Origin: a virus
Length of the DNA stretch: 20,272 nucleotides
Virus record (IMG/VR): IMGVR_UViG_3300011116_000666
Span: 1-20,272 of that record
Strand: one strand, 5' to 3'
Below the pieces are notes generated by a model that worked only from the letters and a program-made list of their open reading frames with translations, ran no database searches and was not told where the DNA came from. Below, one piece after another: positions 2 through 17,817 of this stretch (positions within the stretch are counted from its first letter, which is position 1; each line of letters begins with the position of its first letter). The position numbers and the translations under genes are program-made.

Positions 2-244
2 ATGAAAAAGAAAATTAAACCAGTGTGGGGTTGGGTTGACGATGATCACATCTCTATCTTATGGAATGTCGAAGACGTTCAGACTCAGGCCAAAGTTAAT
101 CAACTTAAGCTTACGAAGGAGGAATGTCGCCAGGTTCTCGATGCGTGCTTAGATGGTCATGATGCAAACATCGGCATCAGCTGGGACATCCTGGATCACC
201 ATATCTGTCATTTGTTTGGTGATAGAATTGGAAAGGCAGCGTGA
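2..244 (+). CDS. Small hypothetical phage protein (80 aa)
   Basis: I do not recognise this 80-residue protein. It is soluble, with no signal peptide or membrane segment. It has an aromatic N-terminal part (PVWGWVDDDHISILW, about residues 7-21) and a central charged helix around LTKEECRQVLDACL (residues 37-50). The ATG is the second base of the window, so its ribosome binding site, or a longer N-terminus, may lie outside; treat the start as provisional. The stop is followed one base later by the ATG of the next small gene, so the two look co-transcribed. This stretch is visibly richer in G+C than the structural genes downstream, which may mean a different origin. Role unknown; an accessory or early gene is a guess from its size and place. 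Confidence 0.6.
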   Translation: MKKKIKPVWGWVDDDHISILWNVEDVQTQAKVNQLKLTKEECRQVLDACLDGHDANIGISWDILDHHICHLFGDRIGKAA

Positions 245-350: not shown

Positions 351-396
351 CCTCGTTCTCGTTCAGGCCGACCTTTGTTTGATGTATACTAAACAA

Positions 397-420
397 TCTC
401 CCTGCAGCGTGGCAGGGAGA
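397..420 (+). terminator. Perfect 9-bp hairpin without a U-tract
   Basis: TCTCCCTGC (397-405) pairs exactly with GCAGGGAGA (412-420) around the loop AGCGTG. No T-run follows, so this is not a textbook intrinsic terminator. It may instead be a 5' stabilising hairpin of a transcript starting at the TATACTAAAC box just upstream, a processing site, or a protein-binding inverted repeat. Confidence 0.45.
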
Positions 421-482
421 TCCGTGATGGTAAGCTCGTTCGTGTGGGGTTTGATGTGTACAACTAGAACTAGAAAATCTGG

Positions 483-494
483 ACGGGGGACAGG
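483..494 (+). repeat. G-rich intergenic motif, copy 1
   Basis: ACGGGGGACAGG, preceded by CTGG. A near-identical block, CTGGC then ACGGGGGACGGG, lies at 1310-1326. A run of five G residues is rare in this A+T-rich genome, so two copies, each in a non-coding spacer upstream of a gene, are unlikely to be chance. Function unknown: operator, RNA element or replication site are all possible. Confidence 0.45.
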
Positions 495-570
495 TCATTG
501 GAAGCTCAACTTGCAAATCCTTGTGCCTTATAGAAAGACTTTTTTACAACTAAATAGTGAAAATGTTCGC

Positions 571-599
571 TTGACATCATTTAGCGAATATCTTATTTC
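571..599 (+). promoter_or_regulatory. Candidate sigma70-type promoter for the 202-aa gene
   Basis: A perfect -35 box TTGACA (571-576) is followed after 17 nt by TATTTC (594-599), a weak -10. The overlapping block ATCTTATnnnTATGGGAT (590-607), also found before the next gene, may be the real core element. It sits 30-60 nt upstream of the ATG at 628. Confidence 0.45.
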
Positions 600-607
600 T
601 ATGGGAT
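590..607 (+). promoter_or_regulatory. Shared upstream motif ATCTTATnnnTATGGGAT, copy 1
   Basis: Fifteen of 18 positions are identical to the block at 1377-1394. Both lie 38-53 nt upstream of a start codon that has an AGGAGTAA ribosome binding site. A promoter or operator used by more than one early or accessory gene is the simplest reading. Confidence 0.45.
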
Positions 608-627
608 AAACAACAAAGGAGTAAATT

Positions 628-1236
628 ATGGGCTTTGACTTATACGGAGTAAATCCAAAAATCAAAGAGGGTACAAAGAAACCTAAAGAGATAGACTGGC
701 AAACTGCAACGGAAAAAGAAAGAGACGAACACTTTGAAGCCGTTAATGAGTTTGAAAGTATTAATAAAGGTGTGTACTTTAGAAACAATGTGTGGTGGTG
801 GAGACGACTTGCCGACTATATTCTCGACCATACAAAATGTGTTGATGAAAAAGACTTTGATAAATGGCAACACAATGACGGACACGAGGTAGACGCCGAG
901 ACGGCAGAACAAATTGCCAATCAACTAGAACACTTAATTAAAACAGGACACGCTGAAAAGTACAAGCAAGAGATAGACGCCGAAATAAAAAAGGCAGAAG
1001 AACACAACAACAAAGTTGAACAGATGTTGTCGGAACTTCGTTTGGAAGTCGCAAAGATTGTTGGCGAGGATAAAGCAAAAGACCTCGCACCGATAGACTA
1101 CCCAGAACCATTACATAAAAAATGGAATGAAATCTACGCTGAAACGGACTACCGAGCAAACTATCCATTTAGTATTGAGAATGTGAAAGAGTTCATAGAG
1201 TTCGCTAGAAATTCTGGTGGCTTTAGAATTTGCTAA
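628..1236 (+). CDS. Conserved phage protein with GFDLYGVNP N-terminus (202 aa)
   Basis: I recognise this as a conserved hypothetical family of marine and other environmental phages, with no experimentally known function that I can name. Hallmarks are the N-terminal MGFDLYGVNPK, the aromatic block YFRNNVWWWRRLADYIL (about residues 50-66), and the C-terminal end FARNSGGFRIC. Between them lies a charged helical region (about residues 95-145) that may form a coiled coil. The start is well supported: AAAGGAGTAAATT sits directly upstream of the ATG. It is soluble with no signal peptide. It is flanked on both sides by non-coding spacers that share motifs, so it is probably a one-gene transcription unit. 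The strongly conserved tryptophan-rich core in this family suggests a binding pocket, but that is inference. Confidence 0.8.
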   Translation: MGFDLYGVNPKIKEGTKKPKEIDWQTATEKERDEHFEAVNEFESINKGVYFRNNVWWWRRLADYILDHTKCVDEKDFDKWQHNDGHEVDAETAEQIANQLEHLIKTGHAEKYKQEIDAEIKKAEEHNNKVEQMLSELRLEVAKIVGEDKAKDLAPIDYPEPLHKKWNEIYAETDYRANYPFSIENVKEFIEFARNSGGFRIC

Positions 1237-1244
1237 TCACACAA

Positions 1245-1270
1245 ACGAGAACGGCTAACGCCGTTCTCGT
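1245..1270 (+). terminator. 11-bp perfect hairpin after the 202-aa gene
   Basis: ACGAGAACGGC (1245-1255), loop TAAC, GCCGTTCTCGT (1260-1270). It begins nine bases after the stop codon, a typical terminator position, and the stem is strong, but the downstream sequence is TCTCGCCTG rather than a U-tract. It could be a weak or factor-dependent terminator, or a 3'-end protecting hairpin. Its right arm contains the CGTTCTCGT block that also occurs unpaired at 354. Confidence 0.5.
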
Positions 1271-1314
1271 TCTCGCCTGTGTCGGTGTTGTTGTATTATA
1301 AACTAAACACTGGC

Positions 1315-1326
1315 ACGGGGGACGGG
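1315..1326 (+). repeat. G-rich intergenic motif, copy 2
   Basis: ACGGGGGACGGG, preceded by CTGGC and followed by GTGG. It differs from the copy at 483 by one base in the 12-nt core. It lies seven bases after the ACTAAAC box here, whereas the gap is about 88 nt in the first spacer, so the blocks recur but their spacing varies. Confidence 0.45.
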
Positions 1327-1376
1327 GTGGAACTGTGGTTGGTGTCAAGAAAAATATTTTTTCTTTTACTCTTGTA

Positions 1377-1394
1377 ATCTTATCGATATGGGAT
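1377..1394 (+). promoter_or_regulatory. Shared upstream motif ATCTTATnnnTATGGGAT, copy 2
   Basis: Identical to the copy at 590-607 except for the three central bases. It is followed by TATATGTATTG. A looser relative, TATGG then TTTATATT, occurs at 2445-2457 upstream of the terminase gene. A TTGTAA at 1372-1377 could act as a poor -35 to TTATAT at 1394-1399. Confidence 0.4.
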
Positions 1395-1429
1395 TATATG
1401 TATTGAAACAAACAAACAGGAGTAATCAA

Positions 1430-2468: not shown

Positions 2469-3944
2469 ATGGATAAATCGCTATATACAATCGACAAGCT
2501 TCGTGAAGAAGTAGAAAAAAAATGGTTGAGTCACATAAAATTATGTCAGGATAATTTTTTATATTTTGTGCAGGAGGTGTGGCCTGATTTTATTTGTCGA
2601 AGAGAAAAGGACCCAAAGAAATGGGGGCACCATCAAATTATTGCAAATGAATTTACTAAGATAGCCAGTCAGAAAAAAGGAAGGCTCATTATCAATATGC
2701 CTCCACGACATACTAAATCTGAATTTGCTTCCTATCTTTATCCTGCTTGGATGATAGGGAAGTATCCTAAGATGAAAATAATGCAAGTGTCTCACAACGC
2801 AGAACTTGCAGTAAGGTTTGGTAGTAAGGTTCGTAACTTAATGGAACAAGCAGAATATAAACAAATTTTTGGTGATGTAAAATTAAAAGAAGATTCTAAA
2901 GCAAAAGGACGTTGGGAAACAAATCATGGTGGTGAATATTATGCTGCCGGTGTTGGAGGTTCCATTACAGGACGAGGTGCTGATTTATTAATTATAGATG
3001 ACCCACACACGGAACAAGATGCCATGTCTGACATGGCCATGGAACGTGCATACGAATGGTATAACTCTGGACCAAGACAACGATTACAACCAGGAGGCTC
3101 AATCTTAGTTGTCATGACGAGATGGGCAGAAGATGATTTGACTGGAAGATTAATCAAGGCTCAAAAAGAACCTAAAGCAGATAAGTGGAGATTAATTTCT
3201 TTTCCTGCAATTTTAAATTCAGGTAAACCTGTTTGGCCTGAGTATTGGGATTTAGAAGAATTAGAAAAAGTTAAAGCATCTTTACCAGTTAGAAACTGGT
3301 CAGCTCAATACATGCAAGAGCCAACATCAGAAGAAGGTGCAATTATAAAACGAGAATGGTGGAGAGTATGGAAGAAAAAAGGAATTCCTAATCTTGCTCA
3401 TGTCATACAATCTTACGATACTGCATTTAGTGCAAAAGAAACTGCCGACTATTCAGCTATTACAACTTGGGGAATATTTTATCCGCATGAAGATAAAGGT
3501 GCTAATATAATTTTATTAGATGCTATGAAAGGTAAATATGACTTTCCAGAACTAAAAGCTGTGGCTTTTGAACAATACAAATACTGGGAACCAGAAACAG
3601 TAATCATAGAAGCTAAGGCTTCAGGACAACCATTATCTCAAGAGTTTAGACGTATGGGTATTCCAGTTGTAGACTTTATGCCATCTAAAGGAAGAGATAA
3701 ACACGTAAGGGTAAATGCTTGTGCTCCTGTATTTGAATCAGGATCTGTGTGGATTCCAGAGGGTGAACACTATGCCCAAGAGGTAATTGAAGAATGTGCT
3801 GCGTTTCCTAATGGTGCACATGATGACTATGTCGACAGTACTACTCAAGCTGTGTTAAGATACCGTCAAGGTAATTTTGTTGAAACTTTATCAGATTGGA
3901 GAGATCCAATGGACAGAATACCTAAAGAATATAAATATTATTAG
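2469..3944 (+). CDS. terL: Terminase large subunit
   Basis: This is the DNA-packaging motor: an ATPase that pumps DNA into the prohead through the portal, and a nuclease that cuts the concatemer. The N-terminal ATPase shows a Walker A-like PPRHTKSE (78-85), a Walker B LLIIDD (173-178), and a coupling segment SILVVMTRWAEDD (211-223). The C-terminal RNase H-like nuclease has its acidic residues in QSYDTAF (D317), VIIEAKASG (E381) and HDDYVDSTTQ (D452, D453, D456). At 491 residues it is full length, and all key residues are present. The family resembles the Terminase_6 group with PPRH-type P-loops (TIGR01630-like C-terminus). The ATG is preceded by AAAGGGGACCC. A small terminase is not recognisable nearby. 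It leads the structural gene run, with the next gene nine bases downstream. Confidence 0.96.
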   Translation: MDKSLYTIDKLREEVEKKWLSHIKLCQDNFLYFVQEVWPDFICRREKDPKKWGHHQIIANEFTKIASQKKGRLIINMPPRHTKSEFASYLYPAWMIGKYPKMKIMQVSHNAELAVRFGSKVRNLMEQAEYKQIFGDVKLKEDSKAKGRWETNHGGEYYAAGVGGSITGRGADLLIIDDPHTEQDAMSDMAMERAYEWYNSGPRQRLQPGGSILVVMTRWAEDDLTGRLIKAQKEPKADKWRLISFPAILNSGKPVWPEYWDLEELEKVKASLPVRNWSAQYMQEPTSEEGAIIKREWWRVWKKKGIPNLAHVIQSYDTAFSAKETADYSAITTWGIFYPHEDKGANIILLDAMKGKYDFPELKAVAFEQYKYWEPETVIIEAKASGQPLSQEFRRMGIPVVDFMPSKGRDKHVRVNACAPVFESGSVWIPEGEHYAQEVIEECAAFPNGAHDDYVDSTTQAVLRYRQGNFVETLSDWRDPMDRIPKEYKYY

Positions 3945-7870: not shown

Positions 7871-10242
7871 TGGCTGAAATTGATAAGAATAACGAATCTC
7901 AAGAACCAGTTCTTGAAGAAAAAGAAGTTGACGTAGAAATTGAAACTCCAACTGACGAAGGTGATGTTGAAGAAGAAACTACAGAAGAGACTGAAGGAGA
8001 TTTCTACAAAAACTTAGCTGAAGACATGGACGAGCGTGTCCTTGCTCGTATGGCTAATTCTCTTATCCAAGATTTTAGAAAAGATAAAGTTTCAAGACAA
8101 GATTGGGAACAAACTTATACTCAAGGTTTAGATCTATTAGGATTTAAATATACAGATCAAACTAGACCTTTTCAAGGAGCATCAGGCGTGACTCATCCAC
8201 TACTAGCAGAGTCCGTTACTCAATTTCAAGCACAAGCTTATAAAGAATTATTACCACCTGAAGGACCTGTAAGAACACAGGTTATTGGTGCTGCAACTCG
8301 CGAAACAATAGAACAAGCAAAAAGAGTTCAGGACTTCATGAACTACATGTTGGTAGATCAAATGGAAGAATACACTCCAGAGTTTGATCAGCTATTATTT
8401 TATTTACCTATATCAGGATCTACATTCAAAAAAATTTATTACGATGAAATAATGCAAAGAGCAGTTGCTAAGTTTGTACCTGCGCAAGACTTAGTTGTTC
8501 CTTATTATGCAACAGATTTAAAAGATTGTGAAAGAATCACTCACATTATTAAGATGAGTGACAATGAAGTTCTTAAAAAACAAAAAGCAGGTTTCTATAG
8601 AGATGTAGAATTATCTGTTAAAAGACCAGAAGAAAGTGATTTAAAACAAAAGTTAGATGAGATTGAAGGTGTAAAACCTGCAGGAGATACAGAGTTTCAA
8701 CATAACATATTAGAAATGCATGTTGATTTAGATTTAGAAGAATTTGAAAAAAACCCAGACACTACTAAAAAGAATAAAAATATAAAAATTCCTTACATTG
8801 TAACGATTGATGAAGGCTCCCAAGAGATTTTATCTATTTATCGTAACTATGATCCCGAAGATGAATTAATGAAACGAACAGAATACTTTGTTCATTATAA
8901 ATTTTTACCAGGTTTGGGATTTTATGGCTTTGGATTAATCCATATGATAGGTGGATTATCACGAACAGCAACTTCTGCACTAAGACAATTGCTTGATGCA
9001 GGTACTTTAGCTAACTTACCAGCAGGATTTAAGTCGCGAGGCATTAGAATTCGTGATGATGACCAACCTTTTCAACCAGGTGAATTCAGAGATGTTGATG
9101 CACCAGGTGGAAATATCAAAGATCAGTTTCAAATTTTACCTTTTAAAGAGCCAAGTCCAACATTATTTCAACTTTTAGGCTTCTGTGTTCAAGCTGGACA
9201 ACGTTTTGCATCAATTGCAGACATGCAATTAGGTGAAGATGTTGCAAACAGGGCTGTTGGAACAACAATTGCACTCCTAGAACGTGGTTCAAGGGTCATG
9301 TCAGCTATTCATAAACGAATTTATTACACAATGAAGCAAGAATTTAATCTTTTAGCAGATGTTTTTGCAACTTATTTACCTCCAGTGTACCCATATGCAG
9401 TTACAAATGCAGATCGAATGGTAAAAGTAGAAGATTTTGATGACAAAGTTGATGTTATACCGGTTGCAGATCCAAATATTTTCTCAATGGCTCAAAGATT
9501 TACACTAGCACAGACACAATTACAAATTGCACAGTCAAATCCACAAATGCATGACCTAAGAGAAGCTTACAGACGTGTTTATGAGGCAATTGGCACAAGA
9601 GAAATAGATTTATTAATGCCACCACCACAACAACCAATGCCACAAGACCCTGCAATTGAAAATGCACGATCTTTAAAGATGGAAATGCTACAAGTATTTC
9701 CAGATCAAGACCATGATGCACATATTTCGGCTCACGGGGCATTTATTCAAAGCAGAATGATACAAATTAATCCTATGGTGTACGCTTTATTGCAAGGACA
9801 TATATCAGACCATATTTCTTTTAAAGCACAAGGAGAAGTTGGTGCAATGATAGCTGAATCTGAAGAAATGGCAGCAATGGCACAAGAAGATCCAGCAGGA
9901 TTCGAAATACAATTTAATTCAATGATAGCAAAAAGAATTGCAGAACTTACAGCACAGCTAGTTCAAGCAGAAGGTGGTTCTCAACAACAAGATCCATTAG
10001 TTGCATTGAAGCAAAGAGAGTTAGATCTTAAAGCTATGGACATTCAAAGAAGAGCACAAGAAGCTCAACAAGATATGGATCGTAAAGAAATGGAACTTGA
10101 AGAAAAATTTGATATTGAAAGATTAAAAGTAGAAAATCAAGAAGAACAAGCAGCTGAAAGAATGAAAGTTGCTAAAGATAAATTAAAACTTCAAGAACAA
10201 TCTTTAAGAGCTAAATCAAATGAACCAGCGAAAAAAGGTTAA
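7870..10242 (+). CDS. Portal protein, P22/podovirus type
   Basis: The portal forms the dodecameric ring at one head vertex through which DNA enters and leaves and to which the tail attaches. At 790 residues it fits the large portal class of podoviruses. Recognisable conserved stretches are WEQTYTQGLDLLGFKY (79-94), RPFQGASGVTHPLLAESV (99-116), LPISGSTFKKIYYD (179-192) and VAKFVPAQDLVVPYYATDL (199-217), followed by ERITHIIKMS. The N-terminal 45 residues are strongly acidic and probably disordered. The last 110 residues are a long charged coiled coil, ending with EPAKKG. It overlaps the preceding stop by one base and carries a 33-aa micro-ORF over its own 3' end. I am confident of the function; the assignment to the P22-like Pfam family rests on pattern memory. 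Confidence 0.92.
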   Translation: MAEIDKNNESQEPVLEEKEVDVEIETPTDEGDVEEETTEETEGDFYKNLAEDMDERVLARMANSLIQDFRKDKVSRQDWEQTYTQGLDLLGFKYTDQTRPFQGASGVTHPLLAESVTQFQAQAYKELLPPEGPVRTQVIGAATRETIEQAKRVQDFMNYMLVDQMEEYTPEFDQLLFYLPISGSTFKKIYYDEIMQRAVAKFVPAQDLVVPYYATDLKDCERITHIIKMSDNEVLKKQKAGFYRDVELSVKRPEESDLKQKLDEIEGVKPAGDTEFQHNILEMHVDLDLEEFEKNPDTTKKNKNIKIPYIVTIDEGSQEILSIYRNYDPEDELMKRTEYFVHYKFLPGLGFYGFGLIHMIGGLSRTATSALRQLLDAGTLANLPAGFKSRGIRIRDDDQPFQPGEFRDVDAPGGNIKDQFQILPFKEPSPTLFQLLGFCVQAGQRFASIADMQLGEDVANRAVGTTIALLERGSRVMSAIHKRIYYTMKQEFNLLADVFATYLPPVYPYAVTNADRMVKVEDFDDKVDVIPVADPNIFSMAQRFTLAQTQLQIAQSNPQMHDLREAYRRVYEAIGTREIDLLMPPPQQPMPQDPAIENARSLKMEMLQVFPDQDHDAHISAHGAFIQSRMIQINPMVYALLQGHISDHISFKAQGEVGAMIAESEEMAAMAQEDPAGFEIQFNSMIAKRIAELTAQLVQAEGGSQQQDPLVALKQRELDLKAMDIQRRAQEAQQDMDRKEMELEEKFDIERLKVENQEEQAAERMKVAKDKLKLQEQSLRAKSNEPAKKG

Positions 10243-17235: not shown

Positions 17236-17817
17236 ATGCCAAACGTAGTTGAAAAATATGGTCTAAGACCATCTAGACAACTGAACGGAAGCCCATTTAT
17301 TAACGCTCAAAACCGTTACAGAATTGCTGCAAACAATACTACTGCAATTTTCCAAGGTGATTTAGTGAAACCACTAACATCTGGAACAATTTCAAGAGCT
17401 GTTGCAAACACTTCAGACACGGTTGTAGGTGTTTTTAATGGTTGTTTTTATACAGATCCAACAACACAAAAACCAACTTTTCTTAATTACTATCCAGGTT
17501 CTGTTAATGCTAGCGATATTATCGCTATGGTCATTGATGGTCCAGATACTGTATATGAAGTAAAAGCTAATGCTACTTTTGTTGTTGCGGATTTGTTTAG
17601 AAACTATTCCATAACTAACGAAACAGGATCAACACAAACAGGAATTTCTAAAGTAACTCTTAATGTGTCTGAGTCTGGTACAGCAGGAACATTTGTGGTT
17701 CAAGCAATTGATATATCACAAGATGTATTTAACAGCGATGTTAACGCATCATCCAATGTTGGAGTTCTTGTTAGAATCAACAACCATTTCTACCGTCAAG
17801 GTGGAACAGGTATATAA
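17236..17817 (+). CDS. Probable head decoration/structural protein (193 aa)
   Basis: The sequence begins MPNVVEKYGLRPSRQLNG and NGSPFINAQNRYRIAANNTT, a pattern I remember in marine-phage structural proteins lying just before the major capsid gene. Most of the protein looks beta-rich: alternating hydrophobic residues, many Thr, Ser, Asn and Gly, as in GDLVKPLTSGTISRAVAN and ATFVVADLFRNYSITN. The C-terminus RINNHFYRQGGTGI is polar. There is no signal peptide and no membrane segment. It has a strong ribosome binding site, AAAAGGAGAAAATAA, and lies 14 bases before the capsid gene, so both should be made together in large amounts. A decoration or capsid-stabilising protein fits place and fold, but no diagnostic motif decides this against another small structural protein. 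Confidence 0.72.
   Translation: MPNVVEKYGLRPSRQLNGSPFINAQNRYRIAANNTTAIFQGDLVKPLTSGTISRAVANTSDTVVGVFNGCFYTDPTTQKPTFLNYYPGSVNASDIIAMVIDGPDTVYEVKANATFVVADLFRNYSITNETGSTQTGISKVTLNVSESGTAGTFVVQAIDISQDVFNSDVNASSNVGVLVRINNHFYRQGGTGI

Follow-up and report, generated by a model that had tools for sequence, protein, structure and literature searches.

Two putative promoters upstream of the terminase gene in a relative of Pelagibacter phage HTVC023P share a palindrome that is probably the operator of a phage-encoded regulator

Arc and Mnt are ribbon-helix-helix repressors of phage P22. The locus described here resembles the Arc/Mnt systems in that it points to a small phage protein with weak similarity to an Arc-like PHROG, a palindromic operator over a promoter and likely autoregulation. 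However, it belongs to a group of lytic phages for which no lysogeny switch is known, it has several separate small-gene promoters, and the family membership of the candidate, a protein like gp13 of HTVC023P, is not secure. RelB-type ribbon-helix-helix antitoxins repress their own promoter, according to the accessible part of one report (PMC2812701), and the same is predicted here, although no toxin partner was identified and distant promoters are also predicted targets. The Aca repressors of anti-CRISPR operons, as covered in the accessible part of another report (PMC9410906), provide a further parallel, namely a small phage regulator that limits a small-gene locus, as is predicted here; in contrast, Aca families are helix-turn-helix proteins, and no anti-CRISPR was identified here. 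A PADLOC search returned one weak match only. In the literature searched, we came across no description of such a regulator controlling transcription in HTVC023P-type pelagiphages. The individual parts (phage repressor, palindromic operator) are of familiar types, and the system as a whole appears to be undescribed in that literature.

The window, by which we mean the whole stretch of DNA that was analysed, is a virus record of 20,272 bp and a fragment from a relative of HTVC023P. The best phage-record match to the window was HTVC023P, with 74% identity over 29% (one record), and the large terminase of the window (2469-3944) shares 76% identity with its HTVC023P counterpart and 63% with that of HTVC027P. 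The two spacers under study lie just upstream of the terminase gene, amid small genes. The first precedes a forward-strand gene (628-1236) that encodes 202 aa (MGFDLYG...) and has 567 relatives in viral contigs and no Pfam or PHROG family; the second precedes another forward-strand gene (1430-1780) of 116 aa, whose sister-phage homologues match HTVC023P gp27. The ribosome binding site AGGAGTAA was confirmed on the forward strand in front of both (617-624 and 1418-1425), and the two proteins share no alignment at E<=100, which bears out the description of these genes as unrelated in the sequence-only reading. After the second gene, a perfect inverted repeat of 13 bp with T-rich DNA behind it (1792-1840) is likely an intrinsic terminator.

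That reading had placed four blocks in the same order in both spacers, and its coordinates were confirmed exactly: block 1 (CGTTCTCGTTC, 354-364 and 1262-1272), block 2 (TATACTAAAC, 385-394; TATAAACTAAAC, 1297-1308), block 3 (CTGGACGGGGGACAGG, 479-494; CTGGCACGGGGGACGGG, 1310-1326) and block 4 (ATCTTATTTCTATGGGAT, 590-607; ATCTTATCGATATGGGAT, 1377-1394). Block 1 was found 3 times in the window with <=1 mismatch, versus 0.12 expected from shuffles, and block 3 was found 2 times with <=2 mismatches, versus 0.28. Block 4 has exactly two occurrences in the window, and its matches with <=3 mismatches numbered 3 versus 1.28 expected. The ribosome binding site AGGAGTAA is also present before a gene at 1940 that is without block 4.

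Relatives were fetched with the gene at 628-1236 (80 kept of 567) and the gene at 1430-1780 (6 loci), and viral contigs were scanned with block 3 (24 stretches) and block 4 (98 stretches). When the second spacer was aligned among 7 relatives, the window included, block 4 and its surroundings were kept, with the core ATCTTAT..ATGGGAT in 7/7, block 3 did not survive as a unit, and block 2 varied, most of it being changed. Blocks 2 and 3 were dropped as shared elements because they are not kept in the second spacer of relatives. In the first spacer, block 3 lies within a longer stretch upstream of the promoter that is kept in several relatives, and among the stretches of the block-3 scan only L018 had block 4 nearby (L058 came from the block-4 scan). 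The likeness of blocks 2 and 3 between the spacers is, to judge from these alignments, coincidental. Both copies of block 1 are on the forward strand: the first (352-364) is a (CTCGTT)n repeat after the preceding gene, outside the operator, and the second (1244-1272) forms, from 1262 on, the 3' arm of a 12-bp perfect hairpin (1244-1271) right after a stop codon, which is terminator-like but without a T run. We regard block 1 as a lineage-specific repeat: in the clade of the window it is a CTCGTT repeat with a strand bias, and another clade has CCCGTTCCCG in its place. The idea that the blocks are retained elements therefore survives for block 4, which recurs in relatives, and fails for blocks 2 and 3 between the spacers, block 1 being a lineage repeat. 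Absence elsewhere and lack of conservation, which had been named as counting against the blocks, are largely what we found for blocks 2 and 3 as a pair, and the recurrence of block 4 answers the point for that block.

Some further features of these spacers were observed. Short G+C-rich repeats with a strand bias, built from a unit that is specific to the lineage (CTCGTT, CCCGTTCCCG, GCTTGAAGCTTGC or GCTCGCTTGC, the last two recognised by eye), follow stop codons within this spacer cluster, in the window at 352-364 and 1244-1272, in G013, G014, G011 and G009, in HTVC027P at ~17390-17430 and in psg01 at ~15400. Upstream of the first promoter (window 460-570), CTAGAAAATCTGGACGGGGGACAGG...AAAGACTTTTTT is kept in several relatives, and part of this stretch persists also in loci that lack the operator (L130, L137, L181). 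At 1341-1349, GGTGTCAAG occurs nearly throughout the 7 aligned spacers, with TGTCAAG in 7/7; its complement is CTTGACACC, a -35-like hexamer facing left.

Block 4 is an 18-bp DNA palindrome, ATCYYAT-N4-ATRRGAT. The putative operator site 1 (590-607) reads ATCTTAT-TTCT-ATGGGAT and is conserved before the homologous gene in seven relatives (L018, L126, L127, L128, L132, L141 and L220), and the putative site 2 (1377-1394) reads ATCTTAT-CGAT-ATGGGAT. Upstream of the MGFDLYG gene the site is two-fold symmetric, its half-sites varying within ATCYYAT, and perfect palindromes such as ATCTTATATATATAAGAT occur. Searching the 50 related records for the pattern ATCYYATNNNNATRRGAT with <=1 mismatch yielded 78 forward matches, spread over 26 records, as compared with 2 for the reversed control. 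This tally includes two one-mismatch matches in coding DNA of HTVC023P (49103 and 50298), which are likely due to chance, and single AACTTATCTTAATAAGAT-type matches in G016, G020 and G023, which look like chance. T2, C3, A6, T13, G16 and A17 were fixed in 62/62 oriented sites, a fixity that the <=1-mismatch match rule favours, and the half-sites vary alike on both sides, within YY/RR. In long records most of the sites are clustered in the spacers that precede the gene for the large terminase: all four sites of G014 (59 kb) lie within 30408-32953, and all four of G013 (38 kb) lie within 26003-28548. The sites of HTVC023P are at 7951, 15174 and 16557. We also noted that the homologue of the first gene of the window (2-244, forward strand) in G009 (L223), 86% identical, has the operator directly upstream. 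The promoter of gene 2-244 itself is cut off by the window edge, and this gene is probably also a member of the regulon.

The palindrome is associated with promoter-like sequences. TTGAC starts 14-20 nt upstream of 39/59 distinct sites (27 loci), where ~1.1% is expected, a ribosome binding site and ORF start follow within 130 nt at 48/59, and both occur in one orientation at 33/59, which places the palindrome on or beside promoters. The commonest distances from TTGAC to the palindrome are 19 and 15 nt, so that the -10 hexamer would fall inside the palindrome. On the forward strand at site 1, the -35-like TTGACA (571-576) starts 19 nt upstream, and a weak -10 hexamer, TATTTC (594-599), assigned by its position 17 nt after TTGACA, would lie inside the palindrome. 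At site 2, a weak -35, TTGTAA (1372-1377), and a -10, TATATG (1395-1400), both on the forward strand and assigned from sequence only, would make the palindrome fill the -35/-10 spacer; CTTGTAAT is kept in 6/7 relatives and TATAT in 7/7. The same layout is repeated at HTVC023P 16557 (TTGACT-ATCTTATCTACATGGGA-TATAAA). A consensus promoter scanner called neither window promoter (site 1 at 571, site 2). Symmetric, conserved half-sites located at the promoters of several genes are what an operator would present. The earlier suggestion of a common promoter/operator thus holds for block 4, which is found again in relatives, lies on or next to promoters and stands in front of genes, and, as far as these comparisons reach, block 4 is the only recurring control element among the four blocks.

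A candidate for the regulator was found in HTVC023P, where site 7951 precedes the operon gp11-gp14 and gp13 encodes 73 aa. Besides HTVC023P itself, a gp13-like gene is present in 9 sister records (G004, G007, G013, G014, G021, G041, G044, G045 and G049) out of 14 fetched that contain sites; the gene was not found in the other records (G009, G011, G018, G039 and G042), all of them fragments of <=20 kb. It is also present in G016, G024, G032 and G037, without matching site clusters, and in three of these four the protein has the same residues at the putative base-contact positions. When viral contigs were searched with the gp13 family, 300 relatives were obtained, of which 80 were kept. These 80 loci contained 44 matches to the operator pattern versus 1 for the control, and in 22/80 the 700 nt in front of the gp13-like gene contained a site with <=1 mismatch, at clade-specific positions of about -404, -37, -276, or -557 to -596; in L254, L120 and L121, for instance, the operator is 37 nt upstream. 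With a matrix trained only on 16 sites (those before the MGFDLYG gene and in the window; threshold >=8 bits), a site was detected within 700 nt upstream of the gene in 15/34 non-redundant loci, as compared with 17/378 control stretches from the same loci, some of which are the genuine downstream site cluster (Fisher p 5e-10, for loci that are related and not fully independent). In the remaining 19/34, nothing upstream of the gene exceeded the threshold. Where a site was detected, the operator lies upstream of the candidate's own operon, as autoregulation would predict. The gene of the 023Pt_psg01 homologue is likewise downstream of TTCCCATA sites, and a genome-contig scan detected a gp13-like protein in a single MAG contig. 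In G004 (L242) a distance of 5 kb separates the gp13-like gene from the homologous promoter downstream of it, and from this gene order the regulator gene, which is outside the window, would be expected a few kb to the left of window position 1; the phage of the window presumably encodes it.

The gp13-like protein is a probable, not an established, member of the ribbon-helix-helix (Arc/CopG-type) family, because the fold evidence is weak. A profile search gave no family match for HTVC023P gp13 itself. The best RHH_1 score was E 2.4e-4 (the psg01 homologue), below the curated cut-off; RHH_5 (1.6e-3) and MatP_C (6e-3) matched gp13-like proteins weakly, as did the Arc-like PHROG (0.004), and Bystin scores as well in some members. 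In the AlphaFold monomer (pLDDT 73.5) helices 13-24 and 30-49 fit the fold, and the expected strand is modelled as a helix. Fold searches with the model gave weak matches, with CopG at Z 2.4 only, a score that we do not count as evidence, and PDB sequence searches also gave weak matches, including AvtR (E 0.36) and Reg576 (0.96), plus unrelated proteins.

HTVC027P, a lytic HTVC023P-type phage with RNA-seq data (PMC12753301, accessible part), allowed a comparison. Its gp21 matches the gp13 profile (E 3.7e-4). Its most intergenic-enriched 8-mer, obtained without using the motif, is the half-site ATCCTATA/TATAGGAT (6 intergenic, 1 coding), and TATAGGAT is found at the promoters of gp02, gp21 (ribbon-helix-helix-like), gp33, gp34, gp36 and gp38. 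In the accessible part of the same report, gp33 and gp34 form their own expression cluster, high at 6-9 h (PMC12753301). This pattern fits shared control of the TATAGGAT promoters, of which the gp21 protein would be the controller; TATAGGAT could also be simply a preferred -10 box in this phage.

We consider it rather probable that block 4 serves as operator for a dimeric factor encoded by the phage, probably the gp13-like protein, acting as an autoregulated repressor of a small regulon. The palindrome, its recurrence, its promoter and gene context and the sites upstream of the regulator gene were observed, and from them we infer binding, repression and timing. The operator would sit on host-type (sigma70-like) promoters, covering the -10 region at site 1 and filling the -35/-10 spacer at site 2, and the regulator would be encoded some kb upstream of the small-gene cluster, in an operon whose promoter has the same operator. 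Host RNA polymerase would first transcribe the regulator operon and the small-gene promoters, and the accumulating regulator would then cover the -10/spacer region and close these promoters, including its own, resulting in a burst of expression from a small phage regulon. If this is true, HTVC023P-type pelagiphages would gain a regulator that can be tested, along with its operator and a small regulon, the unusual temporal clusters of HTVC027P genes would have a reason, and several uncharacterised gene families would be linked by a sequence tag. More tentatively, the operator might mark, in any related contig, a set of genes for host takeover or counter-defence.

Several other explanations of the palindrome were weighed. 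A non-coding RNA unit made from each spacer, as once proposed, is disfavoured: an Rfam search of the spacers gave no match, the first spacer folds no better than shuffles (z -0.86), and the strong fold of the second (z -7.5) is attributed to two local hairpins in its first half rather than to a unit common to both. There is a very small chance that block 4 itself acts in RNA as a 5'-leader hairpin. Its arms can pair when G-U pairs are allowed (96.1% of cells paired), but no pair is changed on both sides, 500/500 shuffles pair as well or better, and no compensatory change was seen among the 30 distinct sites of block 4; an RNA hairpin is disfavoured because the arms do not covary, and the inferred promoter layout also puts most of block 4 upstream of the start point. 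It is scarcely credible that block 4 is the promoter of a single-subunit phage RNA polymerase, even though a conserved core near gene starts would suit one. Such a T7-like promoter was rejected because the relatives of block 4 are two-fold symmetric, true palindromes (as in ATCTTATATATATAAGAT) and shift in register against TTGAC; in addition, no single-subunit RNA polymerase is annotated in HTVC023P or HTVC027P, and HTVC027P is reported, in the accessible part of PMC12753301, to encode no RNA polymerase.

We think it unlikely that some other regulator, of phage or host origin, uses the palindrome as its operator, the gp13-like protein being a bystander whose operon is regulated. The weak ribbon-helix-helix scores, the gp13-like genes in records without an operator cluster and the other small proteins that share the operon all speak for a bystander, but across differing operon layouts (L254, HTVC027P and psg01) the operator-adjacent gene is the ribbon-helix-helix-like one. 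HTVC023P also has a winged-helix-looking protein, gp20 (no family match), which was dropped as a candidate regulator, as homologues were found in no fetched sister record. An activating role of the gp13-like protein, on which promoters with a poor -10 would depend, seems quite improbable. Poor -10 hexamers at many sites, together with the failure of the scanner to call a promoter at 571, make an activator possible, but TTGAC is good at most sites, and the palindrome is centred on the -10 region or fills the 17-nt spacer, which at classical promoters is the position of a repressor. The ribbon-helix-helix protein AmrZ can activate, according to the accessible part of PMC3325190.

A different hairpin was observed outside the window (L118:5765-5806, L058, L075, L085, L089, L091, L105 and L328-L335), and in several phages it comes immediately behind the operator, within the 5' leader. 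Its 26-nt loop, ACACGGTCTTGTAAATTGGCTAGCCA, is invariant, which partly reflects how the loci were selected, since the exact loop with one position free was used to find them. Its 8-bp stem covaries: 96/96 cells are paired, 5/8 pairs are changed on both sides and the covariation score was reached by 0/500 shuffles. One weak Rfam match near it, Mu-gpT-DE, was below the gathering score, and the hairpin is possibly an undescribed phage RNA element. Further along the window, the ORF at 11918-12334 matches a LAGLIDADG/HNH-like endonuclease (Pfam E 0.0022, below the cut-off; PHROG HNH endonuclease 3e-21) and is a possible homing endonuclease among the late genes.
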